A stretch of 64,000 bases of DNA. Origin: Ethanoligenens harbinense YUAN-3. GTDB taxonomy: Bacteria > Bacillota > Clostridia > Oscillospirales > Ethanoligenentaceae. The notes under the pieces are model-generated. The model was not told the origin of the DNA. It made no database searches and saw nothing but the letters and a program-made list of their open reading frames with translations. Below are positions 3,221-64,000 of this stretch, in pieces. The position numbers and the translations under genes were made by a program. The stretch covers positions 1,891,310 to 1,955,309 of the forward strand of contig NC_014828.1 of the NCBI RefSeq assembly GCF_000178115.2, written 5' to 3'. Numbering within the stretch: the first letter of the stretch is position 1; each line of letters starts with the position of its first letter.

Positions 3221-3486
3221 TCTTTTTCATCCCCCTTATCGGTATTGGTTGACTTCGGGCCAACTTGGCCCGAAGTGAAAAGCGCCCCGTTTTGCTCACG
3301 GAGCGCCTTTAAGACAGTCGGGAGGTCGTTCAGCGAAATGTCCGTGCCGCGCACGGCCTCCACGATTTCGATGTTTTCAAGCTCGGTTTTCTGCTTTTCA
3401 AGCTCCCGAAGCCGGGTCTGAAACTCATTGATTTTTTCTTTGGTCTTGTCGATGTCCTTGTTGACGCGCTCAATTTTCGCGTTCAT
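3217..3486 (-). CDS. DUF4315 family conjugative-element protein
   Basis: Small (89 aa) charged coiled-coil protein found in Tn1549-like elements just after the NlpC/P60 gene; function unknown. The N-terminal 45 residues (MNAKIERVNKDIDKTKEKI...) form a heptad-like helix, followed by the family segment NIEIVEAVRGTDISLNDLPTVLKAL. Residues 71-78 read TSGQVGPK and are encoded by a copy of the dispersed palindrome (3252-3276), leaving only a short DKGDEKE tail. The start at 3486 has GGAGG upstream and lies 13 bases after the NlpC/P60 stop. In complete elements DUF4366 and a topoisomerase usually follow; here the next DNA is truncated kdpA. Confidence 0.85.
   Translation of the reverse strand: MNAKIERVNKDIDKTKEKINEFQTRLRELEKQKTELENIEIVEAVRGTDISLNDLPTVLKALREQNGALFTSGQVGPKSTNTDKGDEKE
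3252..3276. repeat. Palindromic repeat copy 1, inside the DUF4315 gene
   Basis: Perfect 12-bp arms (ACTTCGGGCCAA and its reverse complement) around one centre base (C on the plus strand). It is read in frame as TSGQVGPK near the C-terminus of the DUF4315 protein. Confidence 0.95.
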
Positions 3487-3499
3487 AAAATTCCTCCAT

Positions 3500-45684: not shown

Positions 45685-45960
45685 TTACCCCTGCACCAGT
45701 CTCCATAAGCTGCCACAACCATCCCAAAACTGATTGCTCGATATGGCAGAATGAATATCGGAAATTCCTTTATTCTTTACCATACAGCAGTTTGGAATCA
45801 CGTCGGCATACGGTAAGACGTCTGAAATTCGGTCGGAGAGCAGTTTGTATTTTTGAATAGCCTTGAACATTGAGTCGAGCAGATCGCAGGCTTTTATGGC
45901 CTTCCAAGCACAGCCGCATTGAAGTTCTGGCGGGCTAAATTTGCCGTTCTCAATCTTCAT
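45685..45960 (-). CDS. Weakly supported small ORF downstream of hsdR
   Basis: Frame of 91 codons starting MKIENGKFSPPELQCGCAWKAIKACDLLDSMFKAIQKYKLLSDRISDVL. The first half has helical, protein-like character; the Cys-rich composition and the abrupt end QFWDGCGSLWRLVQG are less typical. No good ribosome site is seen. It lies on the minus strand 61 bases after the hsdR stop and could be a remnant or a genuine small protein. Confidence 0.3.
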   Translation of the reverse strand: MKIENGKFSPPELQCGCAWKAIKACDLLDSMFKAIQKYKLLSDRISDVLPYADVIPNCCMVKNKGISDIHSAISSNQFWDGCGSLWRLVQG

Positions 45961-46021
45961 AATAAAGGCTTTAAGTATGCATGGAACAGTCTTAAACAGC
46001 ATTTTTTCACGAGTCGACCAC

Positions 46022-49000
46022 CTATATTTTCGACAACCGATCGTGAACAAGCGGCAATAATATTTTGTCGATCTCGCGTCTGAATTCCTCGTCCTCCAGA
46101 TACTTCTCGCAGAATTCTTGGTTCTTTGCCATGCGTCCTAGAACCACATCCATAATGGTATTGTCGTAAATGATTTTAAAGAGATCGAGCGGGTTCTTAG
46201 AGCGCAAGACCATCTCTTGGTTATTGGACATGTCCTGAACGAATTGCTCCAAAACCTTATCCATTTCAGTGAAGTTCGTGCCAAGGCGTTCGTTTAGGCT
46301 TTGGATGATAGCGGATAAAGCCTCTTTTTCGTCTTCAATCGGCAATCCCGTGCTGGAGGTCTTACTCTTTAGAATGCCGTCCTCGTTCGCCAAAGCAATA
46401 GAGCCTTCAGCCACTTTCTGCACTCGATAATATTGGAGCATAACATCGCTGCCAATATCGGGTGTGCGCTCCGTATCACTTTTGGGCAGTTTGCGGAGCA
46501 AGCACTTGGCATAAGCATGGAACTTGTGTAGATTCTCATCGCCGAGGTTGATAATGTGCGTGAGAAACGCATACAGGCGGATGAACTTTGCAAGTGCGCC
46601 TTTGAAGTCCATTTTATCCTGATCCTCGGTCAGGGCATTGTAGCGGTCGACAGCGGGGTCGATAAAACCATTCAGCTTCGCAAGGTCAATGTTTCCCTGG
46701 TTCTTCGTTTCCTTAAAGAAAACCTTGGCGAAAGCCTCAATCTCGCTGTCACGGTAGAGCATAAAGCGATCAAGGAAATTTTTGATGTCGTAGATGGTGT
46801 TCGGGTCTGTCGTTTCAGCCACGCCCGTCGCCTGATAATAATCCTGAAACGCCTTTTCGATGTCTTCGCGTGAGTTGACGAAGTCCAAGATGAAGGTCTC
46901 AGTCTTACCCTTACACGCGCGATTAACGCGGGAAATCGTCTGAACAGCCTTAATGCCCGTCAGTTTCTTATCCACATACATCGTGTGCAGAAGCGGCTGG
47001 TCGAAGCCCGTCTGATACTTTTCGGCGACAATCAAAAGCTGATATTCGGCGGTGTCGAATTTTTCCACAGTCTCGCTATCCGGAAACTTGTTTAGGTTAG
47101 ATTCCGTATACTCTTTGATTTCGCCGCTCACCTTGTCTTTGACCGTGCCAGAGAACGCCACCAAGATGCCCAAGTCATAGTGCATCTTTTTGATGTATCT
47201 CTGGAACTCGAAGAAATAGCGCACGGCGTGGAGGCGCGAACCCGTCACAAGCATAGCTTTCGCCTGCCCGCCGATGCGGTGCTGCACTTGACTGCGGAAA
47301 TGCTCAATGATGACCTCCGCCTTCTGTGCGAGGTTGTGTGGGTGGAGGCTCATATATTTGCCGAGAGCCTTGTTCGCCAGATTCTTGCCATACACGGGGT
47401 CGTCGGCTATTTTCTTTCCAATTTGGAAGTAGGTTTCGTAGGTCGTATAGTTTTCAAGGACATTGAAAATGAAATGCTCCTCGATGGCCTGTCTCATGCT
47501 ATAGAGGTGGAACGGCTCCGGCTTGCCAGCGGCTGTCGTTTGCCCAAATATTTCCAGTGTCTTTTGTTTGGGCGTGGCGGTAAAAGCAAAGAACGAGAGG
47601 TTTGGCTGCTGACCATGTGCCGCCATTTCATCAGCGATAGCTTCGTCAAGGTCTTTTTCCTCGGCTTCGGCCTTTGCTTCTTCTACTGCAAACTCATGCA
47701 GTTTTTTTTCGACGACATCGTCACCCTGCAAAGAGATGTCCGCCAGAATCTCTTTCATACGCTTGCTTGCGTCGCCTGTTTGAGATGAGTGGGCCTCGTC
47801 CACGATAATAGCAAACCGCTTGCCCGTAGTGGATACCTTCTGCACATCGACAAACGGGAACTTCTGCAGGGTGCAGACGATGATTTTGTCGCCGTTGTTC
47901 AGCGCGGTGGTTAGCTGCTTTGAGTTCTTATCCACGAGGACGACCACGCCCGGCTTATGCTCCATGTTGTAAATATCGCGCTGGAGTTGTTTGTCGAGAA
48001 CACGGCGATCAGTAATGACGATGATGCTGTGGAATATCACCTCGTCATGTATATCATGCAGGTTCGCCAAGTGGTGAGCAAGCCAAGCGATGGAGTTCGA
48101 TTTGCCCGAACCTGCCGAATGCTGAATCAGATAGTTCTTGCCCGACCCGTTGGCGTAAGCATCCGCCACCAATTTACGGACTGCGTCCAACTGGTGGTAA
48201 CGCGGAAATATCAATTTTTCCTTGCCCTTGTCATCTTTCGAGACCTGCACGAAGCGGTGCAGAATGTCCAGAATGCTATCCCTTTGCAGTATCTCTTTCC
48301 ATAAGTACGCCGTGCGATAATCACCGCCCTCGGCGACAGGATTGCCCGCTCCGTGGTCTTCGGTTCCCTTATTGAAAGGTATGAAGGTGGTATCAAGTTT
48401 GCGAAGCCAAGTGGTCATCCAGACTTCTTCGGTGTCCACGGCAAAATGCACAATAGCCCGCTTTTTGAAAGCAAGCAGAAGTTCACGCGGGTCACGATCG
48501 TTTTCATACTGCGTGATGGCATTTCGATACGTCTGCCCTGTGAGCGGATTTTTGAGCTCTATGGTGATTATCGGCAGCCCGTTCAGAAAGATAACGGTGT
48601 CGATAGAGTTCTCGTTTTGCAGGCTGTACTTGACCTGCCGCGTTATCTGCAGGACGTTCTTGGCGTAGAGAGCCGTTAAGCTCTGATTCATGCCGCTGCC
48701 CGGCTTAAAGTAAGCAAGCCGCACGGAGATGCCAAGGTCCACCACACCGTGGCGAAGCACGTCAATCATGCCGCGAGAGTTCAGTTCCGAATTAAGACGT
48801 TTGAAGAATTCCGCTTCGGCAGAGACTTCCGAGCCGTGACGCCTGCAAAGCCCCTGCCATTCGTCAGGCTGAGTGTCTTTGATAAACGCCAGAATCGCCC
48901 CTTTATCCAATGCAAGTTTGCGGTCAAAATCGACGGGATTGCCCTTCTTGTAGCGGTCGGCTTCGACTGCACCCTCAGTGAGCCACCATTCTATCTCTTG

Positions 49001-49033
49001 TTCGAAGTTGCGCTCTTTTGTCTGAATTGCCAT
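46022..49033 (-). CDS. hsdR: Type I restriction enzyme subunit HsdR (second locus)
   Basis: Motor and nuclease subunit of a Type I R-M system, 1003 aa. The N-terminal PD-(D/E)XK nuclease core includes PIITIELKNPLTGQ (about residue 155). The SF2 translocase motifs are Walker A QHSAGSGKSNSIAW (about 310), the DEAH-like IIVDEAHSSQTGD, SFFAFTATPKQKT and a helicase C-terminal part with YQTGFDQPLLHTMYVDKKL and TISRVNRACKGK. The C-terminal HsdM-interaction region ends near LLPLVHDRLSKI. It starts 5 bases after the truncated hsdM-S fusion. It is paralogous to the HsdR at 57336 but clearly divergent. It appears intact. Confidence 0.94.
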   Translation of the reverse strand: MAIQTKERNFEQEIEWWLTEGAVEADRYKKGNPVDFDRKLALDKGAILAFIKDTQPDEWQGLCRRHGSEVSAEAEFFKRLNSELNSRGMIDVLRHGVVDLGISVRLAYFKPGSGMNQSLTALYAKNVLQITRQVKYSLQNENSIDTVIFLNGLPIITIELKNPLTGQTYRNAITQYENDRDPRELLLAFKKRAIVHFAVDTEEVWMTTWLRKLDTTFIPFNKGTEDHGAGNPVAEGGDYRTAYLWKEILQRDSILDILHRFVQVSKDDKGKEKLIFPRYHQLDAVRKLVADAYANGSGKNYLIQHSAGSGKSNSIAWLAHHLANLHDIHDEVIFHSIIVITDRRVLDKQLQRDIYNMEHKPGVVVLVDKNSKQLTTALNNGDKIIVCTLQKFPFVDVQKVSTTGKRFAIIVDEAHSSQTGDASKRMKEILADISLQGDDVVEKKLHEFAVEEAKAEAEEKDLDEAIADEMAAHGQQPNLSFFAFTATPKQKTLEIFGQTTAAGKPEPFHLYSMRQAIEEHFIFNVLENYTTYETYFQIGKKIADDPVYGKNLANKALGKYMSLHPHNLAQKAEVIIEHFRSQVQHRIGGQAKAMLVTGSRLHAVRYFFEFQRYIKKMHYDLGILVAFSGTVKDKVSGEIKEYTESNLNKFPDSETVEKFDTAEYQLLIVAEKYQTGFDQPLLHTMYVDKKLTGIKAVQTISRVNRACKGKTETFILDFVNSREDIEKAFQDYYQATGVAETTDPNTIYDIKNFLDRFMLYRDSEIEAFAKVFFKETKNQGNIDLAKLNGFIDPAVDRYNALTEDQDKMDFKGALAKFIRLYAFLTHIINLGDENLHKFHAYAKCLLRKLPKSDTERTPDIGSDVMLQYYRVQKVAEGSIALANEDGILKSKTSSTGLPIEDEKEALSAIIQSLNERLGTNFTEMDKVLEQFVQDMSNNQEMVLRSKNPLDLFKIIYDNTIMDVVLGRMAKNQEFCEKYLEDEEFRREIDKILLPLVHDRLSKI

Positions 49034-49037
49034 AGCC

Positions 49038-51092
49038 TTATCCCTCCCGACTGATTTTATCTTCTATGTAGGCAATAATTTTTTCTTGCGTAGGTATTGG
49101 GGGCACAAGTATTGGCAGCATCTTGAAATCGCTGTACTTCAAGGATTGCCGCACCCCACCGCCAAGGGTATAAAACACCTTTTTTAGGTCATATGCGTGG
49201 AGCAGATAGGCAAAGTATCTGGGTAATATCCGTCCGTCATGAACTACTAAGCTAAGATAGGCGGATGTAATAATGCCAGTTTCCTTCACATATCCTGTGC
49301 GAAGACTTCGTTTGTCATTTTGTAGGTCGGTCAAACGTAGAACAACATATCCCGGCTCAACTATCTGGTAACCCTCGAAGCTTGCAGGAAGCAAGCCAGT
49401 GTTGGTTTCGATGTCTTTCTGGATTATTCGACCATAACTTAGGCTAAGAAGATTTTCAGACAGCATTTCCGTGTTCTTAGTATTATTTTCGTGCGCTATT
49501 GCTCGCAGAGGGAAAACTTCCCAGTCACATGGGATTTCACCAACCCAATCAATGCCACTGCTTTTGCACGACAAAGCTGTATCTAAGCCATGGGTAGTGA
49601 TGTTAATTATTAGCTGGCGTTTGTAAGTCTCAAGCATTTCCGCCTGCTGCAAAAAGTCAGAAATCAAGGCATCGATATTGGAATCCTTCTCCTGGTCGAA
49701 AAGCCCGTTAATAGCGATTTGAATCTTTTGGCCTAACGACTGTATTTTTCGCAAAGTTCCATCGGCGTTTCCAAGTTCCTCAAAACTGCTGAAAAACCGT
49801 GCAAACGGAATCTCGTAGCCTTTCTTGGTCTTGCTCTCGTCCACCCAAGCGTCCGGCGCATAGGGAAGCACCTCCCGCTGGACGTAGGCGGCGATGTCAT
49901 CCTTGAATGGAATCTGCTCGGTGTCGCGCAGGTCAGTGTCGGGTTCGGGGTTGCCTTTGGCGTCCGTGCAGATGTCGGCGGTTTCGTCCTTTTCAGACAG
50001 CCCGGCAAGAACAGCTTTCAGGAGCGGTGCCTTCACGTCAAGCCCCGCTTTTTTAAACGCTTTATGGAGCAGTTTGCTGAACTCGGCACGATTCTTATAA
50101 AGCACAGCTCCGTCAAGTGTAGCAACAGCGGCAAGGGCGGCTTCTTGTTGCTTCTTACCTTCGGCGACCTCGGCGTCGTGTTCGGCCGGTTTGCGCTTGC
50201 GGCTCGTGGCGAGGTTGGCGAACGCCGTCTGCTCACGGATGCGCTTGATGCGCTCTGCAGACGCTTGGAAGTTCAGCCGTAACGGACGCTCGACCGTTAC
50301 TTTCCAATAAGCGAAGTCGTCTTCGTCAAATATCTTGCAGAACTCGCCCTCCACAAACTTGCCGTAGATGCGGGTCAGTTCGTCCTTCTGCTCTTCGCTG
50401 ATTAGCTTGCGTTTCTCGCCGAGGGGCTTTCGCATACGCTCGAAGAAGGACGTACCGTCAATCAACTGGATTTTGCCCTTGCGGACGCCTTTCTTGCGGT
50501 TGGTCACAATCCAGACATAGGTTAGGATGCCTGTATTGTAGAAAAGCTGGTCAGGTAGAGCGATGATAGTCTCCAGCCAGCCGTTCTCAATAATCCATCT
50601 GCGGATTTCGCTTTCACCGCTGCCTGCGTCGCCTGTGAAGAGCGGCGAACCGTTAAAAACGATAGCAAGTCGGCAACCGGTCAAGCCCTCCGCTTTTTCG
50701 TCGTACTCCATCATCTTGCTTATCATGTGTTGAAGAAAGAGGAGCGAGCCGTCCGACACACGGGGCAGCCCCGCACCAAAACGCCCGGCGAAGCCGCGCT
50801 CGTTCTCGTCGCGGATGAACTTCTCATACTTCTTCCACTCCACGCCGAAGGGCGGATTGCAGAGCATATAGTGGAAGGTTTCATGCGGCAAAGCGTCTTC
50901 GGTAAAGCTGTTGCCAAGGTGGATGTTCTTATAGCCCTTGCCCTTTATCATCGTATCCGATTTACAGATGGCATAGGTCTTTTCGTTCAGTTCCTGCCCG
51001 TACACCTCAATGAGAGCCTGATTGTTCAGTTCGGTGGCGTACTCAATGCCCGCCGAAAGCATACCGCCCGTGCCTGCCGCCGGGTCTATCAA
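49038..51092 (-). pseudogene. 5'-truncated HsdM fused to half an HsdS
   Basis: The frame begins inside the methyltransferase domain: IDPAAGTGGM (SAM motif I), CNPPFG (motif IV, N-P-P-F) and ERPLRLNFQ; roughly 180-230 HsdM residues are missing compared with the HsdM at 61822. Without a stop it continues into a specificity-subunit half: LETYKRQLIINITTHGL, SGIDWVGEIPCDWEVFPLRAI (entry to a TRD), and the closing IPTQEKIIAYIEDKI. So it encodes HsdM C-terminus plus one TRD. The frame stays open upstream to a TGA near 51225, but that part (LYALKSRKAQKQHGFRAN) is unrelated, and the only plausible start is a TTG at 51092 without a ribosome site. Probably inactive as a methylase. Confidence 0.8.
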
Positions 51093-51287
51093 GACCTCAT
51101 CTTTGATACAATGCCCGTACGTGCTGTTAGCCCGGAAACCATGCTGTTTCTGGGCTTTTCTGCTTTTCAGGGCATAGAGCGGGAGCGTGACTGTGGCCCT
51201 TGTATGTATATGTTGCTGTGGCTGCTGTAGTCAAAAGCGACACCCTCAATCTGCAATCGTTAAAAGGTATGGCTACCGTTGAAAGGT

Positions 51288-53642
51288 TTAATCGGCGCTG
51301 TCGGTGTATCCGAAATGGTCTCTGACCTTCTGATGCGTCGTCTTATCATTAAGCATGTAGGCTACAAGCGGGACTGTCGTCATTCCCTTCTCCCAGTAGC
51401 CACCATTAATATCCGTCACATATTTCTTCCATGCAACTCCGATAAATACTTCCTTGTTGGGATCGAGTTTCTCCTTGGATTCCTCGGATTCCCACGGCGC
51501 GTCTGCAACAGGAGTTGAAGTGCCGTCGACCATCACCTTGAAGTTCTTCATCGGCACAGCGGTTGATGTGCATTCGCCAATACCTACAAAGCCATATCCA
51601 GCGATATGGCAATAAACCGTGTCTCCGACCTGAACGTTATAAATAGATTTCCCGCTGCCGCCAAGGTTCGCGGACAGGAATCCGTATTTCAGCGCGTCTG
51701 GCCAGCTTCTTTCTGCATAGCCGACTGTAAATTCACGGCCCTTCTCGTTCTTGAAGAAGTCCTTCTCATCGTCATCGGCCCATCCACCAACGATTTCCTT
51801 AATGGCATCCGGATTCCAGATGTCACTTGCCATTCTCAGATAGATCTCAGCCCGGTCTGCGATGCTTTGCTTACTGAAGTCAGGAATCGCATGAAAGCCG
51901 TACTCGTTAACGACCGTGAGGAATTTCGGATTGTTCGTGTAAGCTGTGTCGTTCAACGCCTGAGCAAGGATGTTGTCTCCCATGTACTTCTGGACCTTCT
52001 CGGAGTATTTCATTGCCTGATAGCTTCTGTTCTTGTCTCGGGTGAGCAGGATCAGGTTTCCGATCTGATTCCTGGTGGATTCGAAATCCTCGTAGTCGGT
52101 GAAGCTGTCCTCGTAGTCCTCGTACTTGTCCGGAAGGATATGCTCAATATCGTAAGTGTTTCCCTGACGCTTGCGGTCAACGTACTCCTCGAAATGCGAC
52201 GGATTGCCCATCAGCACATTCACATAGGAAGTGAAGCGCGCGAGGATGTGAAGCATGTAACGTCCGGAGAACCGGTTCAGACTGAACCTGGTGATTCCCT
52301 CGACGGTCACGTCCATACGGCGGAGTGTACGGACATAGACCATGCCGATCGTCTTACAGTCCTCATTGCGGATATCCTGCATCGCATGAAACAGCAAATA
52401 CTTATTCGTGTTCCAGTTAACCTTCTTGAAATTCAGGATTCGGATGGTGGCAAAGTCGTCCACGAACTTTGCGGTCATCTGTATTTTCTTCTGTACGATG
52501 TCGTCCGTGTCGTCATTTTTAATGGCAGCGATGGCAAGCATGGTCTGGTAGGTCAGGTCGCGGTTTGCATTGTAGAAGACCTCTTCATATCCGGGCGTCA
52601 GCTTGCTGCCATAGCCTTTCATCCGAAGATAGATATCAGTGACACGTGTCATTTCAGTGAGAACAAATTCCTTGTAGTCCTTCGGCTTTACAAGGCCCAT
52701 CGCCGTCCGGGCGTTGTTGCGTACCCAGGTATGGAACTTGTCTCCAAGAAGTTCGTAATCCTCATCTTTAGCGCCGCGCTTGGTATCTCGCATGGAATTT
52801 GCATATTTTGCGCGAAGCCAGATAGAGATGAATTCAACGTCCTGCGTATTCACCATGCCGCTCGTATCGTAAGAAGAGGCGTTCTTGATACGGTTGATGT
52901 TGTCCTGCCACTTCCGATTTACCTCAATGCGGTCAGCTTCTGCAACCTGCTGGATGATGTAAGCCTTCATCATCTCGGCGCTGTTCAGACTCAGGCCTCG
53001 GTCATTCATTGTCAGGAAAATCGTGTGTGCTTCGTCGTCAGATGGTGTGTCGATCTCCAGCAGGAGGACCTTCTCTATCAGCCAGTTAATAAAGTAAGGA
53101 AGCGCTTCTCCCTTCAGCTCGTCAGGGAAGATGTCCTCTATGTCCTGATACCGGTCAAGCATATTCTGTGAGCTCTCATTCACTGGCACATAATTCTCAT
53201 CTTTTTGCAATAGAGCCTGCATGCAAGTCCCGCGGTCAGCCACATCGATATTGAAGCTCTTCTTACTGAAGGCCTTTGAATAGATCATGTCATCCAGCGG
53301 GACAAGGAGATCCTCATCCTTGACAGTTTCTTTTTGCAGGTTGTTCAGATAGATGATGAGAAGTGTTAGCGAGGTCAGACGCTGCTGGCCATCGATGATT
53401 TTCTTTACGGAACCGCCAGTACAGATAATGCATCCCATATAATAAAAGCCATAGTTCATGACTTCTTCCGGCGTATCATGATTATCCGGATCATAAAATT
53501 CCTCAAATGTGCTCTGGAAGTCGGCGAGCATCTGCTCAATCTGCTTCTGCCCCCACCGATATTCCCGCTGGAAATAATCGACGGTGTATTTGCGACCACT
53601 CAGAATTGTTTTGAGCGTGTCTGTTTTGTCAATTTTCTGCAT
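51288..53642 (-). CDS. DUF262/DUF1524 (GmrSD-like) endonuclease with extra C-terminal domain
   Basis: Protein of 784 aa. The N-terminal DUF262 domain (ParB-like NTPase fold) shows KIIDGQQRLTSLTLLIIYL at about 82-100. The DUF1524 His-Me nuclease-type domain at about 495-560 shows NTYDIEHILPDKYEDYEDS and TRNQIGNLILLTRDKNRSYQ. Such proteins act as Type IV-like enzymes against modified phage DNA (GmrSD) or in phosphorothioate defence (SspE). The last ~160 residues (AERSWPDALKYGFLSA...VGDTVYCHIAGYGFVGIGECT) resemble a PUA/EVE-type fold, possibly a modified-base reader. It starts 5 bases after hamB, so it is probably in the same transcript. Confidence 0.88.
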   Translation of the reverse strand: MQKIDKTDTLKTILSGRKYTVDYFQREYRWGQKQIEQMLADFQSTFEEFYDPDNHDTPEEVMNYGFYYMGCIICTGGSVKKIIDGQQRLTSLTLLIIYLNNLQKETVKDEDLLVPLDDMIYSKAFSKKSFNIDVADRGTCMQALLQKDENYVPVNESSQNMLDRYQDIEDIFPDELKGEALPYFINWLIEKVLLLEIDTPSDDEAHTIFLTMNDRGLSLNSAEMMKAYIIQQVAEADRIEVNRKWQDNINRIKNASSYDTSGMVNTQDVEFISIWLRAKYANSMRDTKRGAKDEDYELLGDKFHTWVRNNARTAMGLVKPKDYKEFVLTEMTRVTDIYLRMKGYGSKLTPGYEEVFYNANRDLTYQTMLAIAAIKNDDTDDIVQKKIQMTAKFVDDFATIRILNFKKVNWNTNKYLLFHAMQDIRNEDCKTIGMVYVRTLRRMDVTVEGITRFSLNRFSGRYMLHILARFTSYVNVLMGNPSHFEEYVDRKRQGNTYDIEHILPDKYEDYEDSFTDYEDFESTRNQIGNLILLTRDKNRSYQAMKYSEKVQKYMGDNILAQALNDTAYTNNPKFLTVVNEYGFHAIPDFSKQSIADRAEIYLRMASDIWNPDAIKEIVGGWADDDEKDFFKNEKGREFTVGYAERSWPDALKYGFLSANLGGSGKSIYNVQVGDTVYCHIAGYGFVGIGECTSTAVPMKNFKVMVDGTSTPVADAPWESEESKEKLDPNKEVFIGVAWKKYVTDINGGYWEKGMTTVPLVAYMLNDKTTHQKVRDHFGYTDSAD

Positions 53643-53647
53643 AGTCT

Positions 53648-56380
53648 TTATCCCTCATCATTATTATCGGCTTCAAAAATCTCCGGTGAGTTCTGCCGTA
53701 TGTATATGACTTCATTACGAACATCCGTATTACCACACCGAGCAAGAGCAGGGCTAAGTTTCAGCTGGCCTGTGCTACCGTCCCTTATGACATACTCGTG
53801 GTGCTCTTTTATGTAGCGAGCGGATTCTCTGGAAAAGCCGCTGCGCTGCAGCAGGATCGTCAGCGGATTCGTCGTACCGAATTCCACGTATTCATACCAA
53901 TTGTTCCGGTTGAGTGCCTCGTCTCCTCTGATTTTCCTGTACTCGTTGGAGAATCGAAGGAAATAGTTCGAAATGCTGTAAAGGATGATGTTCTCAATAA
54001 CCTCAAGCGTGTCTCCGAATACGGCATTGTGATGGTCGTCGGAAAGGTAATTGTACGTTATCGGAGACCCATGCTTGTTGATCCAGAATGGGTATGGGTG
54101 GTTCTGATGGTATTCAAGAGCCCTGTCCATGATGAACTTCAACCCGCCGCCGTCCATCCACTGGCAGAGGATCACGGCGTACCATCTGCGCAGTGATGGT
54201 TTTCCGAGCGTACCGGCCTCGTACTCCTCCCAGTTGAACACTTCTGCAAGTTCGTCGAGAAAAGCAAGCACATCGTCATATACGAACTTCCCATCAACAA
54301 GATCTGGATAACGCAGCGGGTTTCGCTCCCTTCGGATAGCTGCAATAAGGCTTGTTGTCTGATCTACCGACGTATTGATGTCGTCATCAGGCTTGACTTC
54401 GGCGTCTTTGAAGGTATCCCGGATGAACTCCTCATCGGCTGGCGTCAAGAAGTCTTTGAATTCACGACGCACCAGCGTATCCCGCTCGTGAACAATGTCT
54501 CCCTGAAGAATAGTCGCGAATCTGCGCATCATCTCATAGGATTCCTCGCTCTGCATAGCTTTGCCATCAGCGTTCACACGGCGTGGTATTTCCGACTTCC
54601 CGCTTTTGAGAATATCGGCGACATACTGTTTCTCGACCTTCTTGAGCACATTCGGATCAGTAGCAATAGAAAGCGACTGCTCTGGAATTTCCTGCCCAAG
54701 CATACGTACATAGTCATCTGTCGTTATCTTGCTGTTGCGTTCCGCTACAAAGTAGACATTCCCAAAGAGGTTGAAGCTGATCCTGCCCACTCGGCCTATG
54801 AGATTACGGAAATCAATGGTATTCATCTCGCTGAGGAATATCTTGTTCTCCATGATGAACAGATTGTCCGCCGGGAGATTGACGCCCTCCAACAGCGTAC
54901 TGGTACAGAACATTACCGTGATGTTCCCGGATTTAAAAAGCTCCTCGATCCGTGCCCTTATTGATGCCGGAAGATAACCGATGTGGTAAGCAATGCCATA
55001 ACGTACCATTTCTGCGAGGTAGTACCATTGATGGACTTCTTCCTGAATGTCCTTTGACAAGGCCTCAAGAAGCGGATCATTTCTCGGGCCATTCGGTTTT
55101 ATCCGCTCATAGAAGGAGTGGGCGGCCCTTATGGCCTTGTCTCGTCCGTTGTAGTAAACGATGCTCTGCTTACGCTTTTCCTTGGAAAGTTTCCTGTTCT
55201 GTGTTTCGATAGCCAGCAGGAAGTCATTCACTTCAATACCGCTGCCGCGCACATTGGCGAGAAGTATTCGGCACTGATCTTCAAGTGCGTGGTCGTTATA
55301 AACCTCGATTCGTCCTTTCTTCAGATCAACAAGAAATTTGATCTGAACAACCGGCGAGTATGTGATTGCAAGAGCGTCTTCATCGCCTTCCTCCGCATTG
55401 AGCATCAATCTCAGATAGACCTGCGGATTCGGTATGTTCGGCGATGCGAAGATGAAGTGCGGTTTCTTCTGGCGATGCACGAGCTTGTCGACTACTTTGT
55501 AGTAGAAAGGCGCTCGACTGTTCTTGCCTGAAAGTTTGTGGGCCTCGTCGATGAACAGATAATCCAGGTCAAAGCGAGGCTTCGCTATCAGAAGGTAAAG
55601 AAGTCTCTCCGGCGTCATGACAAGGATGAAGTTCCGGTTATCGTCCTCTAGAGCTATGTCGCTTGCTGCTGTCACCACGCTGTAGTTATGGAGCTTCAGG
55701 TAGTTGACCTTCTCTGTATTCTTTTCTCCGCCAAGATCGTCTATGACTTTTGCCCGGACTTCGTTTATCAGCGCCTTGGTAGGGACGATGAGCGCATAGT
55801 TCTTCTGGGCCCCGTGCATGATCTCGTCCTTGATGAACATCCTCATAATGAAGGATTTTCCCATCGAAGTGGGCGCGGAGTAGCTAAAGCAGTCGTCCGT
55901 CAGATGGTCATAGGCGTTCTTCTGTTCTCCGAAGAACCGCTGGCTAGGTTCCGCGGGGATAGTGAGGTAATCGCCTCTGAACTGTGCGAAAATTTCTTCC
56001 AGTGCATGCGGCTCAGAATAGTCCTTGTTTACAAGCTCGAGTCCCTTGTGGTTACCGACGCTTGAGAAAACGTCTCCGGCGTAAAGGTTGACGAGCGAAT
56101 CCTGCGGATACATCTCATGCATCAGTATGGCTATTTCCTGAGCCCATATCTTGTGCGCGTCTGCCTTCTCTGGATCATTCGACTTGGAGAGAATGTCGGC
56201 AAACCGTAAAATGTCGGTTTTCTCCTTGGCGTTGAACAACTCCGTCGAGCTTCGTTGATTCAAGTTGAAGAGACTCAAGCCATAGCCTTTCAGAAGCCGA
56301 GCATACAGTGTTCCAAGGTATGGATTGCTGTCGATGCCGGCGAAGATGACCGACCCAAGTGTTCTCTTTTCAACGGTCAT
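53648..56380 (-). CDS. hamB: HamB-like SF2 helicase of a Hachiman-type defence system
   Basis: DEAD/DEAH helicase of 910 aa. Walker A is SAPTSMGKSF (about 168-177), Walker B YLFIDEAHKLSGKN (about 276), motif III-like FIFASPNIPN, and the C-terminal RecA motifs CTSTLLEGVNLPADNLFI and FRNLIGRVGRISFNLFGNVYFV, with a long C-terminal extension. This Ski2-like architecture directly after a DUF1837 gene is the Hachiman arrangement. HamB is thought to sense aberrant DNA and release HamA. Its ATG overlaps the hamA stop by 4 bases. Confidence 0.85.
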   Translation of the reverse strand: MTVEKRTLGSVIFAGIDSNPYLGTLYARLLKGYGLSLFNLNQRSSTELFNAKEKTDILRFADILSKSNDPEKADAHKIWAQEIAILMHEMYPQDSLVNLYAGDVFSSVGNHKGLELVNKDYSEPHALEEIFAQFRGDYLTIPAEPSQRFFGEQKNAYDHLTDDCFSYSAPTSMGKSFIMRMFIKDEIMHGAQKNYALIVPTKALINEVRAKVIDDLGGEKNTEKVNYLKLHNYSVVTAASDIALEDDNRNFILVMTPERLLYLLIAKPRFDLDYLFIDEAHKLSGKNSRAPFYYKVVDKLVHRQKKPHFIFASPNIPNPQVYLRLMLNAEEGDEDALAITYSPVVQIKFLVDLKKGRIEVYNDHALEDQCRILLANVRGSGIEVNDFLLAIETQNRKLSKEKRKQSIVYYNGRDKAIRAAHSFYERIKPNGPRNDPLLEALSKDIQEEVHQWYYLAEMVRYGIAYHIGYLPASIRARIEELFKSGNITVMFCTSTLLEGVNLPADNLFIMENKIFLSEMNTIDFRNLIGRVGRISFNLFGNVYFVAERNSKITTDDYVRMLGQEIPEQSLSIATDPNVLKKVEKQYVADILKSGKSEIPRRVNADGKAMQSEESYEMMRRFATILQGDIVHERDTLVRREFKDFLTPADEEFIRDTFKDAEVKPDDDINTSVDQTTSLIAAIRRERNPLRYPDLVDGKFVYDDVLAFLDELAEVFNWEEYEAGTLGKPSLRRWYAVILCQWMDGGGLKFIMDRALEYHQNHPYPFWINKHGSPITYNYLSDDHHNAVFGDTLEVIENIILYSISNYFLRFSNEYRKIRGDEALNRNNWYEYVEFGTTNPLTILLQRSGFSRESARYIKEHHEYVIRDGSTGQLKLSPALARCGNTDVRNEVIYIRQNSPEIFEADNNDEG

Positions 56381-57306
56381 AGGTCGACATCTCCTTCCAG
56401 AACATGCTGCATGATCAAGTCACTTTCCTCCCTGGCCTGATTAAGAGGCAACGTGAAGAAATAGAACGAGTGATTCTGCAGTTTTGCATCGCGTATCTTT
56501 TGAGCTATGTATTCTTCGTGCGCGTTGATGTCGCGAATCATTTTCTTATGCATGCGGTCCCGGAACTGGTCATCGTCATAGCCGTCCGGGATCAGGCCAA
56601 GAGAATATCCGAGGAACACTCCGAAGGATGTACCGTAGGCAGCGTTTTTGTGCTCCTCCGGGATAACGTAGCTGGTCAGGACTTTCAGGTCGTCTTCTTC
56701 ATAGAAGCGATCAAGTGCTGTTTTCTCTACGAGAAGCAGCTCTTCATCCTCGTGATTTGCAATACGAGATATCTTCTCAAAAGCGATGTCAATGGCGTCC
56801 TTGATGTCTCCAGTGACGCTCGACGCACCGAATACCATCTGATTGGAGAGGATCGTTTTGCCGTCCCTGCACAGGAAATGAATGCCGTCGGCCTCGCTCG
56901 CATACTGCGCAGCATCTGCGCTGAGTTCGATTTTGCTGAGGAGCTTATGAGCATTAAGCTTTTCTTCCATGACAGCATAGACCATGATCTCGCCGAGCGT
57001 TTCTCCTGCATCAATGTCTCGAGCCTTGGCGCTTTTTCTCATGGCTCTCAGGGCTTGCTGTGTCACAAGGTCGAAATTGCCTGTATTCCGATAGTTCTCC
57101 TGCTTTGCCCGAGAGAACACATACTGCCCGATGTTGAGCATGGTAAATTTCTCAAGATCGGATGATTTGATGTTTCCGTTTCTGACGTTGAGGCAAAAAA
57201 GGCGCAGAGAACCAGGGCGTACCATTCCGCTGATCGTCTCGGAATGCTCCACCTCTGTAAAGTAATCATCGAATGTCTTGTCCTTTACAGTTTTGGATAA
57301 CTCCAC
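56377..57306 (-). CDS. hamA: HamA-like DUF1837 protein, E-x-K residues apparently absent
   Basis: Protein of 309 aa, the effector partner of HamB in Hachiman (also resembling AbpA). The DUF1837 core is visible: GETLGEIMVYAVMEEKLNAHKLLSKIEL (101-128), SEADGIHFL (137-145), then QMVFGASSVTGDIKDAIDIAFEKI (156-179). In the active family the last block normally reads gESK, giving the PD-(D/E)XK nuclease its E and K; here it reads GASS. The GTG at 57306 follows GGGAGG. It is located between hsdR and hamB. The family call is firm from context; the loss of catalytic residues relies on recalled family consensus. Confidence 0.8.
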   Translation of the reverse strand: MELSKTVKDKTFDDYFTEVEHSETISGMVRPGSLRLFCLNVRNGNIKSSDLEKFTMLNIGQYVFSRAKQENYRNTGNFDLVTQQALRAMRKSAKARDIDAGETLGEIMVYAVMEEKLNAHKLLSKIELSADAAQYASEADGIHFLCRDGKTILSNQMVFGASSVTGDIKDAIDIAFEKISRIANHEDEELLLVEKTALDRFYEEDDLKVLTSYVIPEEHKNAAYGTSFGVFLGYSLGLIPDGYDDDQFRDRMHKKMIRDINAHEEYIAQKIRDAKLQNHSFYFFTLPLNQAREESDLIMQHVLEGDVDL

Positions 57307-57335
57307 GCTTGCTGCCTCCCTTCATTTGCGTCTGT

Positions 57336-60300
57336 CTACTTTTTAGAATCGCTGTCCTTCTTTTCACCGAACGTTACTTTGCCATCGGCTACCATCATTC
57401 CGCTTCTTGGCGCTTCTGTTGGATATCGATAGCTTGTGAAATTGTCGCTGGCGACTTTCGGAGAATCCAAATCGTCTGGTGCTTCATACGGTTTCCCCTC
57501 CTTGTTGTACGTCATGTTGAATACCATATTCGTAAGCCACTTCTTGAACGACGGATTGTCCTGAAACTGCTTAAAGAGCTCCATGTTGTCCGCCATGATG
57601 GAGAAGATGACCTTCTGCAGGGCGCGCTCGCTTTCTGTTCGGGCTTCCTGCTCATCAGAATTCTTCATGGCATTCTGGTATTTCTCGTCACGAGAAACCA
57701 TCGCCGGAATCTGGAGGATCTGGCGCTGTACGTTATCAGCGTCATTCCACTGGATGTTTCCGAACATATCGTTGAAATCCATGATGATCTTGGAAAGCGG
57801 ATCAAGTTCCGGCTCAACGTTATGGCCGACCTTTCCGGCAGGGACCGGAGCAATCTCGGCCTCCTCGTCCTCCAGTTTTATGGCCACGGCCTCCTGTGCT
57901 TCATTCCGATAACTGTCCAGATCAATCGTAGACAAAATGCCCTCTGACAAATCATCCTCACGAGGTGACGGAAGTTTCGGTATTAGCAGATTCAGGAAGA
58001 TCGACAACTTTTCCCAGTCCACATTCCCATAGGGAAGAATGGAACCAAGGAAACCGTATGTACGGACAAATGACTTTGCTGCGCTCTTGAACTTGATCTG
58101 ATCGTCCGTTTCGAGTTCGTTGTAGGTAGCCACGCACGGATCAAGCAACGGATCAAGCCTGTCTCTCTCAGCTCCGCCAAGGAACAAATCAACTACGTGC
58201 TCTACATCGTCAGCGTCATATACCTGATAGCTCTCCATGAGCGTGATCAGGTCGTAAAGCTTGTTCGGATCAGTCTCTCCAGACAGTATCGTTGTCCTGT
58301 AGAACTTCGAGAAGGCGTCCTGAATCGTCGATGTCTTGTTTGCAAAGTCCAGCACATAGACTTCGTCCTTCCCGGGAGCCGCGCGGTTCAGACGGGAAAG
58401 CGTCTGCACTGCCGCAATGTCATAAAGCGGCTTATCCACGTACATGGTCTGCAGAAGTGGCTCATCAAATCCGGTCTGGAACATGTCTGCAACTACCAGA
58501 AGACGATACGGATCTTTCTTGAACTCCTTCGGGATCTTGGCGTCCGGGAACCCGTTCAGTCCTGCCGACGTCAGGGCAGGTTCCTGTCCGTTGTATTTGC
58601 ACTCGCCGGAGAAAGCGATAATCGCCTTGTACGGACTATGTCTGTCTGCAAGGCACTTGTTGATGGCATAGTAGGTCTCGATGCAGCGTGGGATGCTCGC
58701 GGTCACCACCATTGCGCGGGACTTTCCGTTCAGCTTCTTCTTAGCGATGATCTGCTCATGGAAGTGATCCACCATCATGGCAGCCTTCTTGGCGATGACA
58801 TCCGGATTCCCCTCGACAAAGGAACGCAGTTTTTTCTGGGCGCGCTTCTTGTCGAACATCGGATCGTCCTCGACCTTCTTGGCAATCTTGTACCAGCTGT
58901 CGATCGCCGTATAGTTCTTCAAGACGTCAAGGATGAAGCCTTCCTGAATGGCCTGCTTCATGGTGTAAACATGGAAAGGCCTGTGCTTGATTTCGCCATC
59001 CTCTTCATATGGCGTTCCGAAAACCTCCTCGGTCTTGTTCTTTGGGGTCGCGGTGAACGCAAAATAGCTCGCGGTCTTTACGAGCTTCCGGCCCTCGACA
59101 ATCGCATTGATCTTGTCTTCATTGTCCATTTCGTTGTCTGAAGCCATGCCGGAAAGCGCCAGATTCATATTCGCGGAATTGCGCCCGCTCTGGCCTGAGT
59201 GTGCCTCATCGATGATAATGGCAAAATGATTATTGATATGTTCCTGACCGATTTCCTGCGAGATGTACGGGAACTTCTCAACCGTGGTTATAATGATCCG
59301 CTTGCCATCCTGGATTGCCTTTTTCAGGTCTCCGGAATGCTGTGCCCAAACGACCGTGTTTTTCACCTGCATGAACTGCTTGATGGTATCGCGGATCTGC
59401 TTGTCCAGAATCCTGCGGTCGGTGACGACGATAACGGAATCGATCATCGGATGGCCGTCTTGTTCCAATCCAATCAGCTGATGAGCAAGCCATGCGATAG
59501 AATTCGACTTTCCGGAGCCTGCACTGTGCTGGATGAGATAGCGCTTACCGACACCGTTTTGTTTCACATCTGTGAGCAGCTTCTCCACGCAGTCCAGCTG
59601 ATGGTAGCGTGGCCAGATCTGTTTCACGGTTTTCTTCTTCGTGTCCGGATCTTCGTCAACGACGACCTGAGCGTAATTCTCGATAATGCGGGAGAGCTTC
59701 CACTTCGTCAGAATGTCCTTCCACAGATAGTCTGTCATGATGCCGTCCGGATTCGGCGGATTGCCCGCGCCATCGTTATAGCCCTTGTTGAATGGCAGGA
59801 ACCAGCTGTCTTTACCAGCAAGCTTCGTGCAGAACATGACGGTCTGGTCATCGACTGCGAAATGCACCATGCACCGTTTGAACGAGAACAGCGTGTCCCG
59901 CGGATCGCGATCTTCCTTATACTGCTCAACGGCATCTGCTGTCGACTGACCAGTGAAATGATTCTTGAGCTCAATCGTGACGACCGGAAGACCGTTGATG
60001 AACAGGCAAAGGTCGAGTGCGAGCTTTGAAGCGTCGATGGAATAGCGAAGCTGCCGTGTCACACTGAAGATATTCTTTTCAAACATCTGCTTCGACTTCT
60101 CGTTGTTCTCAGTCGGCGTGAAGTAGAACATGATGAGGTCAGCCGGATACGCTTTCACACCGTTTCGCAACACATCAATAATGCCGCGCTTGGCAATCTC
60201 TCCGGAAAGGCGGTTTAGGAACTGCCGCTTCTTCTGATCGCTGTTATTTACACCAAGCTTTGCCATTTCCCTCGGCTGCGTATCATTCAGGAACCGGAAG

Positions 60301-60431
60301 AGGCGGGTTTCGTCTACGGCGTATTCCTTACTGTAGTCGTCATTCGTTCCCTGCTCGTAGCCATTCTGCTCCACGAGCCAGTTCACGATGATCGTCTCAA
60401 ATCCCCTCTCGGTTTTATCCGTAAAAGCCAT
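57336..60431 (-). CDS. hsdR: Type I restriction enzyme subunit HsdR (first locus)
   Basis: Restriction subunit of 1031 aa. The nuclease core includes PVVTIELKNHFTGQ (about residue 155), Walker A is QHSAGSGKSNSIAW (about 305), then FAIIIDEAHSGQSGRNS and SYFAFTATPKNKTEEVFG. The C-terminal helicase part shows MFQTGFDEPLLQTMYVDKPL and TLSRLNRAAPGKD. A C-terminal extension includes the acidic KLEDEEAEIAPV stretch. It starts 2 bases after the hsdS stop, completing an M-S-R operon. The family's specificity is set by HsdS; target unknown. Confidence 0.95.
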   Translation of the reverse strand: MAFTDKTERGFETIIVNWLVEQNGYEQGTNDDYSKEYAVDETRLFRFLNDTQPREMAKLGVNNSDQKKRQFLNRLSGEIAKRGIIDVLRNGVKAYPADLIMFYFTPTENNEKSKQMFEKNIFSVTRQLRYSIDASKLALDLCLFINGLPVVTIELKNHFTGQSTADAVEQYKEDRDPRDTLFSFKRCMVHFAVDDQTVMFCTKLAGKDSWFLPFNKGYNDGAGNPPNPDGIMTDYLWKDILTKWKLSRIIENYAQVVVDEDPDTKKKTVKQIWPRYHQLDCVEKLLTDVKQNGVGKRYLIQHSAGSGKSNSIAWLAHQLIGLEQDGHPMIDSVIVVTDRRILDKQIRDTIKQFMQVKNTVVWAQHSGDLKKAIQDGKRIIITTVEKFPYISQEIGQEHINNHFAIIIDEAHSGQSGRNSANMNLALSGMASDNEMDNEDKINAIVEGRKLVKTASYFAFTATPKNKTEEVFGTPYEEDGEIKHRPFHVYTMKQAIQEGFILDVLKNYTAIDSWYKIAKKVEDDPMFDKKRAQKKLRSFVEGNPDVIAKKAAMMVDHFHEQIIAKKKLNGKSRAMVVTASIPRCIETYYAINKCLADRHSPYKAIIAFSGECKYNGQEPALTSAGLNGFPDAKIPKEFKKDPYRLLVVADMFQTGFDEPLLQTMYVDKPLYDIAAVQTLSRLNRAAPGKDEVYVLDFANKTSTIQDAFSKFYRTTILSGETDPNKLYDLITLMESYQVYDADDVEHVVDLFLGGAERDRLDPLLDPCVATYNELETDDQIKFKSAAKSFVRTYGFLGSILPYGNVDWEKLSIFLNLLIPKLPSPREDDLSEGILSTIDLDSYRNEAQEAVAIKLEDEEAEIAPVPAGKVGHNVEPELDPLSKIIMDFNDMFGNIQWNDADNVQRQILQIPAMVSRDEKYQNAMKNSDEQEARTESERALQKVIFSIMADNMELFKQFQDNPSFKKWLTNMVFNMTYNKEGKPYEAPDDLDSPKVASDNFTSYRYPTEAPRSGMMVADGKVTFGEKKDSDSKK

Positions 60432-60433
60432 GA

Positions 60434-61822
60434 TCAGCCCTCCTCTCCATCGATTTCTGTTACCTCTGTTTCTTCGCCGTCCTCATTGTTATCATCGTAG
60501 ATGTCGTCGATGTGCTCATATTCGGGAATAGTGACATTGCGGACATCGATCTTTCCGGTGACTACATCCGAGATGATTGTTGACTTTAGCTCCTGAAGCG
60601 CTTTTATTTTGCTTTCTGCTAATTGAATAGCTTTATCAAGCATGTCGCATTTATCGTCCAAATAACAAGCAATTTTCTCTTGCTCAGTAACATCAGGATA
60701 AGCAAGTTTTAACTGTTCCAATACTCTCATGCCGATGTTTTGCTGAGTACCATATGACCAACCATCCTGCACCTGTTGTTGATATGGCAAAGCCTGCAAA
60801 GCGTAAAAGAGAAAACGCGGTAACATCACTTCTTGATTGCAACGGAAAACGGCAAGTGGAGACCATATAGTAAATATTCTGTCTGTATCTACAATTGATA
60901 CTCGTCCAGTAGTCGCGCCAGATTTGATCATGTATATATCATCAATCTTAGGCACATATTTCTTACAACATTCTTCATAAAAGTCCTGAGAAATAAATCC
61001 TCGAATATGATTAAAATCAATTTTTCCATTACCACACGAAACAGCTTCTGCAGAAACAAAGGGGATACCCTCCTCATATAACTGTGGAGTTGTATGTGGG
61101 CCGTCCGTCAGCGGTTGTGAAAGGACACGGAGTGTTTTCGTAATTCGCCATCCTTTTGGAATCATCCGATAGTAGCTATTATCTGTCCCACAAAGTTCTT
61201 CTCGTTTTAGTCCTGTAGTTACAGTTTTAGTAATAACCGTGTTCTTCAGTTGATTGAATTCCTGTATTTCCTTCCGGCGGATTCCGATCAACTTGTTGAT
61301 TTCGGAGACCTTCCAGTCAAGAAAACGCACAATTTGATCCTGCTCAGCGCGGGGAGGAACAGGAAGGAGAATGGTCCTCATCTCGCTGTAGCGAGTGGTC
61401 CAAAGATCAGCAACAATTCCTCTGCCATTCCTATAGTATTCTTCCGAGAATCTATAGTTGCGAAGCAGGTAATGTACATAGTCATTGTTCAGCTTGCTTC
61501 GTGGTGTCAGAACAAGATTGATAAGTGAAACTGATCCGTCCAGTTTAGATACACCACAGGAGCCTTTTCGATCTGAACGGCTATTGATAACAAAATCTCC
61601 AGCTTTCACCAGTTTGCGGTTATCACTGTCGTTTGATTTTGCGGCGTGCTCAAGCTGAGGAAGAATACCTTTTTTCGTTACTGACAGTGGCGCATAATCC
61701 TTGTCCGATACTTTTGTCTTTCGCTCTGTGAAGAGGGCGTCTATTTTCTGCAATTGCCAATGCGCTGGGATCTGCGGGAGCCATGCGGCATCTGTGTTAA
61801 TAACATCTGTGTATTCAACCAT
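60434..61822 (-). CDS. hsdS: Type I R-M specificity subunit HsdS
   Basis: DNA-recognition subunit of 462 aa with the usual two target-recognition domains. TRD1 begins after AAWLPQIPAHWQLQKIDALF and ends at the central conserved helix (LDWKVSEINKLIGIRRKEIQEFNQLKNTVITKTVTTGL, about 170-205). TRD2 begins at GWRITKTLRVLSQPL and ends at the second conserved helix (KIACYLDDKCDMLDKAIQLAESKIKALQELKSTIISDVVTGKI). A very acidic tail follows (DDIYDDNNEDGEETEVTEIDGEE). Start and hsdM stop share one base. The two TRDs should each read half of a bipartite site. Confidence 0.94.
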   Translation of the reverse strand: MVEYTDVINTDAAWLPQIPAHWQLQKIDALFTERKTKVSDKDYAPLSVTKKGILPQLEHAAKSNDSDNRKLVKAGDFVINSRSDRKGSCGVSKLDGSVSLINLVLTPRSKLNNDYVHYLLRNYRFSEEYYRNGRGIVADLWTTRYSEMRTILLPVPPRAEQDQIVRFLDWKVSEINKLIGIRRKEIQEFNQLKNTVITKTVTTGLKREELCGTDNSYYRMIPKGWRITKTLRVLSQPLTDGPHTTPQLYEEGIPFVSAEAVSCGNGKIDFNHIRGFISQDFYEECCKKYVPKIDDIYMIKSGATTGRVSIVDTDRIFTIWSPLAVFRCNQEVMLPRFLFYALQALPYQQQVQDGWSYGTQQNIGMRVLEQLKLAYPDVTEQEKIACYLDDKCDMLDKAIQLAESKIKALQELKSTIISDVVTGKIDVRNVTIPEYEHIDDIYDDNNEDGEETEVTEIDGEEG

Positions 61823-63828: not shown

Positions 63829-63844
63829 TGACTTTCTCCTTCGC

Positions 63845-63873
63845 ACCGCTGTTTCTTCGCAGCGGCCTTTTTC
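63845..63873. other. Hairpin in the hsdM leader
   Basis: CCGCTG and CAGCGG arms around a 7-9 base loop, followed on the plus strand by CCTTTTT. On the minus strand it lies just before the hsdM ribosome site and could be a leader structure; on the plus strand it could terminate incoming transcripts. Confidence 0.4.
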
Positions 63874-63918
63874 ATTTATTATGTATTACCGGCTGTCCAA
63901 TAGTCTGGACTTCGCCGA

Positions 63919-64000
63919 TCAGTTTTCCTTGTTTTCCTTTTCGCTGTTTTCTTCGGCAGCTCCGCCGGAGCGAATCCAGTCATCGACTTCGCTCAGTTTG
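63919..64000 (-). CDS. C-terminal end of an unidentified gene (5' part outside window)
   Basis: Only 26 codons before the TGA at 63919 are in the window: KLSEVDDWIRSGGAAEENSEKENKEN. The Glu/Asn/Lys-rich tail is protein-like and the strand matches the R-M operon, so this may be another operon member 90 bases upstream of hsdM. Too short to identify. Confidence 0.5.
   Translation of the reverse strand, partial: KLSEVDDWIRSGGAAEENSEKENKEN

Follow-up and report, generated by a model that had tools for sequence, protein, structure and literature searches.

Two kinds of mobile element resembling the one analysed here have been described in the accessible parts of the publications: integrative elements (ICEs) in methyltransferase genes, and a phage with tandem recombinases and a GA core. 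The prophages Phi1207.3 (Tn1207.3) and Phi10394.4 of Streptococcus pyogenes carry two tandem serine recombinases at their right end (PMC4260502). Phi1207.3 integrates into comEC at a specific GA dinucleotide, which is duplicated; its left arm contains a third resolvase, and the phage bears mef(A)/msr(D) (PMC4260502). Tn1806-like ICEs with triple serine integrases insert into hsdM, snf2 and an Eco57I-type methyltransferase gene, and the 100 transconjugants from one mating carried the insertion in hsdM (78), snf2 (19), the Eco57I-type gene (1) or both hsdM and snf2 (2) (PMC12942858). Diverse methyltransferase genes are given as targets of these ICEs in PMC13006639, an insertion in hsdM was reported already in PMC4701971, and serine integrase triplets in such genes are also found in PMC7563491. 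The accessible text of PMC12942858 and PMC13006639 does not contain the word 'motif', and that of PMC8637289 holds nothing bearing on such integration. In the literature outside preprints and most subscription journals, we found no paper that names motif I as an attachment site or places phages in this way in BREX or type III genes.

The genome of Ethanoligenens harbinense YUAN-3 (3.0 Mb, one contig) contains a resident type I hsdM that is not one uninterrupted gene, the interruption being 56,914 bp long. The whole stretch of DNA that was analysed, called the window, comprises 64,000 nucleotides and includes one end of the interruption. The best explanation of the locus as a whole, which we consider highly probable with its presumed consequences included, is that hsdM was split by the integration of a temperate phage, which encodes two tandem large serine recombinases (LSRs) and entered at a GA dinucleotide in motif I. 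The features of the locus are the following, in window coordinates unless the genome is named; loci used for comparison are given by their L numbers.

46022–49033, minus strand: resident hsdR, 1003 aa (profile matches; 88% identical to L119 HsdR over its length)
49038–49697, minus strand: half hsdS fused in frame, with the central helix and TRD2, lacking TRD1 and the distal helix (L121 HsdS match; PADLOC Specificity_I)
49698–51086, minus strand: 3′ part of resident hsdM (N6_Mtase; 88% to residues 213–676 of L119 HsdM)
51087–51112, minus strand: left arm of the phage attachment site, at the prophage end (rejoined with the far arm, 19/26 positions symmetric around GA)
51087–64000, no strand: in-window part of the 56,914-bp prophage (delimited by the junctions; phage genes continue past the window, on to genome C1:1999309)
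51288–53642, minus strand: phage-borne GmrSD-type gene (PF03235 and PF07510; 98% identical copy in the L148 element)
53648–56380, minus strand: phage-borne hamB, Hachiman helicase (PADLOC HamB, 1120 bits)
56377–57306, minus strand: phage-borne hamA (PF08878; PADLOC HamA, 412 bits)
57336–60431, minus strand: phage-borne type I hsdR (profile matches; 98% identical copy in L148)
60434–61822, minus strand: phage-borne type I hsdS (profile matches)
61822–63846, minus strand: phage-borne type I hsdM, complete (HsdM_N and N6_Mtase; PADLOC MTase_I, 808 bits)
genome C1:1999310–1999987, minus strand: 5′ piece of resident hsdM (HsdM_N and N6_Mtase positions 3–53; about 44 kb past the window)

The initial annotation described a single frame running from the SAM motif of HsdM through an HsdS helix and one TRD, and this frame is open on the minus strand at 49038–51092, counted from the first TTG. 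It matches positions 51–289 of the N6_Mtase profile (PF02384), and its HsdS part scores 107.6 bits with PADLOC Specificity_I and 20.8 bits, below the cut-off of 22, with Pfam Methylase_S. The intact hsdR claimed to lie beside the fusion comes next. The hsdM portion begins at the GA of the motif I Asp codon (51086–51085) and reaches near the gene end; its own start codon is absent and none occurs inside the homologous sequence. The first ~200 HsdM residues were said to have been replaced. The upstream DNA indeed codes for no HsdM front, but the front was not lost and lies 56,914 bp away. A search of the whole genome with the N6_Mtase profile identified four places, the fourth of which is the HsdM front end at C1:1999331–1999483, on the same strand and outside the window. 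This piece sits in a 245-aa frame that now closes with a short phage-encoded tail and then a stop. The intact HsdM of L119, from a Christensenella metagenome-assembled genome, served as the reference for both halves: the 5′ piece corresponds to its residues 1–212 (93%) and the 3′ piece to residues 213–676 (88%), with no gap and no overlap, and the combined halves contain both type I HsdM domains, HsdM_N and N6_Mtase. The proposed check against full-length homologues returned eight HsdM relatives from genome contigs, and AKLYDPA-x-GTGG is unbroken across the joint in all of them. As judged from these matches, the missing 5′ end of hsdM is neither a misassembly nor a plain truncation; the prophage sits precisely in motif I.

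The 'unrelated open stretch' that had been noted above 51086 is the end of the prophage, which opens with an attachment-site arm. GA is present at both junctions, where the HsdM homology stops. The rejoined phage ends read ATTGTATCAAA-GATGAG-GTCTTG-ATA-GA-AAA-CAAGAC-GCAAAA-TTTGATACAAT, a 54-bp imperfect inverted repeat with 19 of 26 positions complementary and GA exactly central. Of the 10,231 pairings that share the same dinucleotide and lie up to 200 bp from the two junctions, this one scores highest; the runner-up reached 16. The joined host side is symmetric at 6 of 26 positions and codes for SAM motif I, Leu-Tyr-Asp|Pro-Ala-Ala-Gly-Thr-Gly-Gly, split at the bar. A short common core and a symmetric attP, as expected for an LSR prophage, are thus both present. 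Among 391 genomes of the class, the arm pattern occurs in two: twice in the genome studied here, at the two ends only, and twice in genome G196, near contig ends. The reversed pattern gave three matches in three of these genomes. Beside one G196 arm are 42 residues readable as HsdM; the other (L129), with a 22-residue host piece, and an arm-like end in L228, with a short host piece, had no assignment and were counted against the proposed target. No intact attP was found in the arm-pattern loci or in the named phage stretches L227–L232.

Other candidate boundaries were rejected. The direct repeat AACGATTGC..GGGTGTCGCTT near both junctions was discarded as the core because its alignment score of 40 is at the level of shuffled sequences (maximum 47, mean 28, n = 200) and because it lies away from the end of the hsdM homology. 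An IS21-type end was also discarded: the junction sequence on the 5′ side is single-copy in the genome, and a 23-base pattern from the window side has one match. The core pattern GTCTTGATAGAAAACAAGAC was found in a single stretch of the viral contigs, with flanks that look like unrelated coding sequence.

The DNA between the hsdM halves carries phage packaging, structural and lysis genes. All ten interval proteins that were compared with PHROGs matched: DNA polymerase, terminase, portal, protease, major head, tape measure, one tail protein (minor tail and Dit), endolysin and two integrases, with the terminase and the first integrase represented by pieces cut at locus ends. The two integrases are tandem LSRs of 608 and 527 aa. 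The 527-aa LSR contains Resolvase, Recombinase and zinc-ribbon domains (PF00239, PF07508, PF13408), and the second recombinase matches phrog_95 as a piece cut at the locus end. At the far junction, the space separating the recombinases from the front half of hsdM (L007:3247–5240; genome C1:1997247–1999240) contains a BnzB-like gene (225 bits) and another that matches BnzA weakly (16 bits). Two frames, one of 459 aa and the other similar but smaller, likewise adjoin the junctions in L039 (RlmL-like gene) and L043 (PglX gene). IstA/IstB-like transposase frames, of IS21 type by eye and the first apparently in two frames, lie at L007:8690–10703. Outside the prophage, a 539-aa frame at 36890–38509 of the window resembles a serine recombinase by eye.

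The cargo next to the left arm has a close counterpart in L148, a record whose LSR is 94% identical to that of the prophage. The left-arm cargo of L148, in the order seen in the prophage described here, consists of HsdS, HsdR, HamA, apparently two HamB pieces (by eye) and GmrSD, with GmrSD and HsdR 98% identical to the copies described here. The host piece in L148 is an MmeI_Mtase. Near-identical cargo next to a different host gene indicates that closely related elements occupy two different methyltransferase genes. As far as sequence comparison can tell, the defence cargo is part of the element. The suggestion that the resident HsdR might depend on the HsdM 11 kb away is weakened, as that HsdM is a prophage gene with its own HsdS and HsdR; resident and prophage proteins are 36% identical for HsdR and 38–40% for HsdM.

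The right-side junctions of related elements were collected from 454 viral stretches encoding relatives of the 527-aa LSR, of which the best 80 were kept. A right arm was defined downstream of the LSR by at most four mismatches, a GA start and an ATACAA end, with the best two matches taken per locus; the rule on the ATACAA end was set only once the host translations were known. The arm was found in 27 of these best 80 relatives, and in one of them (L053) it runs off the contig. A host junction with a GA core was obtained for 30 of the 80, through the phage arm in 26 and through methyltransferase similarity in four. The latter are L067, found by tblastn, and L065, L091 and L092, which were added by a tblastn panel of methyltransferase 5′ halves against 52 arm-less loci and read from printed sequence. 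These four cannot be independent evidence for the target. The host frame is open to the GA in 25 of the 26 arm junctions, over 17 to 1210 residues when followed to a stop or the contig end; L085 repeats L055. Of the remaining 50 relatives, one is L053 and the other 49 show no recognised arm; several stop a few bases from the LSR. The weak arm matches in L042, L063, L074, L078–L081, L084 and L116 lack the ATACAA end and were therefore left out.

Searches identified 22 of the 30 host pieces as methyltransferases, 19 by HMM and three by tblastn (L065, L091 and L092). HsdM or N6_Mtase hosts are found in L048, L051, L055, L058, L059, L067 and L093, and weakly in L076 (19.1 bits against a cut-off of 20.4) and L114 (26 residues, 23.5 bits against a cut-off of 242.75). 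PglX is the host in L043 and L046, which IIG and DrmMI models match too; type III genes are the hosts in L060, L062, L096, L099 and L117, and IIG genes in L072 and, weakly, L115 (21.9 bits). The host piece of L039 contains RlmL and THUMP domains. The L070 host is Snf2-type, assigned through homologues that are unbroken through GNIL-EPS-x-GVGNF; searches of its 5′ half against Pfam (last 320 aa), PADLOC and NCBIfam (1210 aa) gave no methyltransferase family. The hosts of L040, L088 and L090 were assigned by eye from similar sequence, and the pieces in L041, L044 and L045 (three of the 30) are too short for assignment. The short pieces of L045 and L040 matched nothing in PADLOC or NCBIfam.

The arm pattern was found in 98 stretches of the viral contigs, which reading sorted into 10 right arms of the LSR set, 12 left arms and 76 apparently unrelated stretches, mostly one recurring gene. 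Half of the 12 left arms adjoin a methyltransferase 3′ half and half do not. With the left arm of the locus described here there are 13 such junctions, and in six of them (this locus, L136, L148, L173, L177 and L207) the 3′ half is named by HMM. A further one, L225, is a methyltransferase by eye (DPCMGSGHILVYAFD, 31 residues, no Pfam match). The other six (L140, L141, L170, L187, L203 and L224) show no recognisable methyltransferase and were counted against the proposed target. LSR relatives (E up to 0.001) are present in six of the 12 other left-arm records (L148, L173, L177, L140, L187 and L203), with best-match identities from 35% to 94%. The left arms of L170 and L187 are followed by nearly the same sequence in two contigs, again with no recognisable methyltransferase; this flank is perhaps another target of a related recombinase.

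In two further records, one methyltransferase gene is divided between the two ends of the element. In IMG/VR 2881717282, the two open pieces of a split HsdM are 230 and 295 residues long, and the rejoined arms are symmetric at 18 of 26 positions. The cargo place by the left arm of this record (L173) is taken up by type I HsdR and HsdM genes that differ from those here, along with two genes that PADLOC does not match at 1e-20. PV036449.1 (NatCom_35866) provides a further left arm that adjoins a methyltransferase; its gene is split into 317 and 311 residues near record positions 60067 and 3323. IIG models match the 3′ half with 84 bits and, weakly, the 5′ half with 19.5 bits; in the annotation of the record, one of the halves is called a DNA methyltransferase and its partner a hypothetical protein. 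A third contig, IMG/VR 3300046030_000049 (L043/L203, 214 kb, eight LSR matches), has two arms that rejoin at 19 of 26 positions, yet the far flank (L203) does not supply the missing part of pglX, and this contig was counted against the proposed target. In this contig brxC lies by the pglX front half, and pglZ and brxL lie by the far left arm. It perhaps consists of nested elements with a BREX system as cargo.

The HsdS-type C-terminus of the fused frame, as it was first described, is atypical. A type I HsdS normally has two TRDs and two helices, and here there is one of each: TRD1 and the distal helix are absent, and both are kept in the six relatives with a complete hsdS (L119–L121, L123–L125), in which hsdM and hsdS are separate genes. 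The HsdS proteins of the relatives were read from translations, with pairwise alignments against L119 and L121 only; L122, cut by the locus end, and L126, whose frame breaks off, are outside this set. The half hsdS is 64% identical to residues 190–397 of L121 HsdS; for its TRD region the identity is 64% to that of L121 and 33% to that of L119. In the window, the end of hsdM (after NGLFD) continues into the HsdS central helix. This arrangement arose separately: hsdS lost TRD1 and the distal helix through internal deletions, which joined the hsdM end to the central helix. After hsdR, a 121-aa frame at 45685–46050 resembles by eye the start of a 588-aa gene behind L119 hsdR and is probably a gene remnant. 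The hsdS deletions and this apparent remnant point to a locus in decay and not to a switch that is still used, and the fusion looks like decay that followed silencing. Half-HsdS variants of type I systems have one helix and one TRD and dimerise; the half here differs from them in that it is fused to HsdM, its helix precedes the TRD, and hsdM is split. The helix and TRD in frame could serve as a half HsdS if hsdM were whole, and a one-TRD fusion that dimerises could form only in the absence of the prophage. In L125 (Streptococcus gallinaceus), a 666-aa frame at 3031–5031 that resembles a serine recombinase lies directly upstream of an intact hsdM of the same family.

Based on these comparisons, a mechanism can be proposed. 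A temperate phage with two tandem LSRs probably integrated at the GA inside the SAM motif I codons of the resident hsdM, and the LSR pair may use the conserved DNA coding for motif I as attB. The insertion would halt resident methylation. Type I HsdR works only together with its M and S partners, so restriction would halt too, without self-damage. The type I, Hachiman and GmrSD genes of the phage might take over defence, and excision would return hsdM to an uninterrupted frame. What the DNA itself shows is that the gene is split precisely, that the attachment site is symmetric once rejoined, that the interval contains phage genes, and that other methyltransferase genes have this junction near related recombinases. 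In a more general form, which we advance tentatively and with somewhat less than even confidence, a phage integrase family uses the DNA of the catalytic SAM motif of amino-methyltransferases (HsdM, PglX, type III Mod, IIG, RlmL, Snf2-type) as its attachment site, and lysogeny usually disarms a resident defence that depends on the methyltransferase and installs the phage's own defence genes; immunity would thus be swapped reversibly, by way of the integrase's specificity. In most of the named hosts, the system is one whose restriction needs the methyltransferase. The RlmL and Snf2-type genes do not fit; they are not parts of restriction systems, and therefore disarming cannot explain every target.

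That observation also speaks for another reading, to which we give nearly even chances: the phage made the split, the locus is simply dead, and the motif is a convenient conserved landing site, with disarming bringing no benefit. The phage would then have hit hsdM once, and hsdS and the gene after hsdR would have decayed, in line with an hsdS that lacks TRD1 and its end and with the likely remnant of the 588-aa gene. Against a dead locus, the resident hsdR is still full length and 88% identical to its L119 counterpart, and both attachment arms are retained, so excision is still possible. A working one-TRD HsdM–HsdS fusion that dimerises and reads a palindromic bipartite site, as first proposed, agrees with a frame that is intact from motif I onward, but as the frame stands we regard it as very improbable: the fusion lacks the N-terminal 212 residues of HsdM and a start in the homologous sequence, the front lies across the prophage, and none of the six relatives with a complete hsdS has such a fusion. 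Even less credence is due to a rearrangement or misassembly that brought unrelated pieces together. The locus is known from a single assembly, but the hsdM pieces meet edge to edge, the rejoined ends are symmetric, and the same arms occur in other methyltransferase genes of independent records.

For the integration of the phage into motif I, the landing site is a protein motif common to many methyltransferases, which enables one integrase family to find targets in very different bacteria, often in a defence system. If the proposed steps are true, phage integration would play a direct part in silencing and reactivating type I, type III and BREX systems, and many hsdM genes annotated as 'truncated' would be split genes. 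The locus further directs attention to recombinases whose coding attB can be predicted, and a comparison of a lysogen with a cured strain makes the proposal testable.

The prophage shares with Phi1207.3, as described in the accessible text, the tandem serine recombinases and the GA core, and the Phi1207.3 recombinase is 54% identical to the 527-aa LSR. Phi1207.3 sits in comEC, whereas the prophage described here sits in hsdM. The Tn1806-like ICEs are, in the accessible accounts, conjugative and have three integrases; in the element described here, two LSRs were observed at this end, together with phage genes. They are flanked by G-rich 4-bp repeats (TGGG-GGGA or -GGGT; GGGG); no such repeat is present at the junctions described here, which share GA where the homology ends. 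Among the matches listed, 15 of 605 phage records, the Candidatus Heliusvirales gut phages, such as NatCom_35866, have a recombinase 61–71% identical (H1–H5), which adjoins a second recombinase-sized gene, like the tandem LSRs here. NatCom_35866 is another phage with another cargo, and its record, like the genome of E. harbinense, holds both halves of a split methyltransferase.
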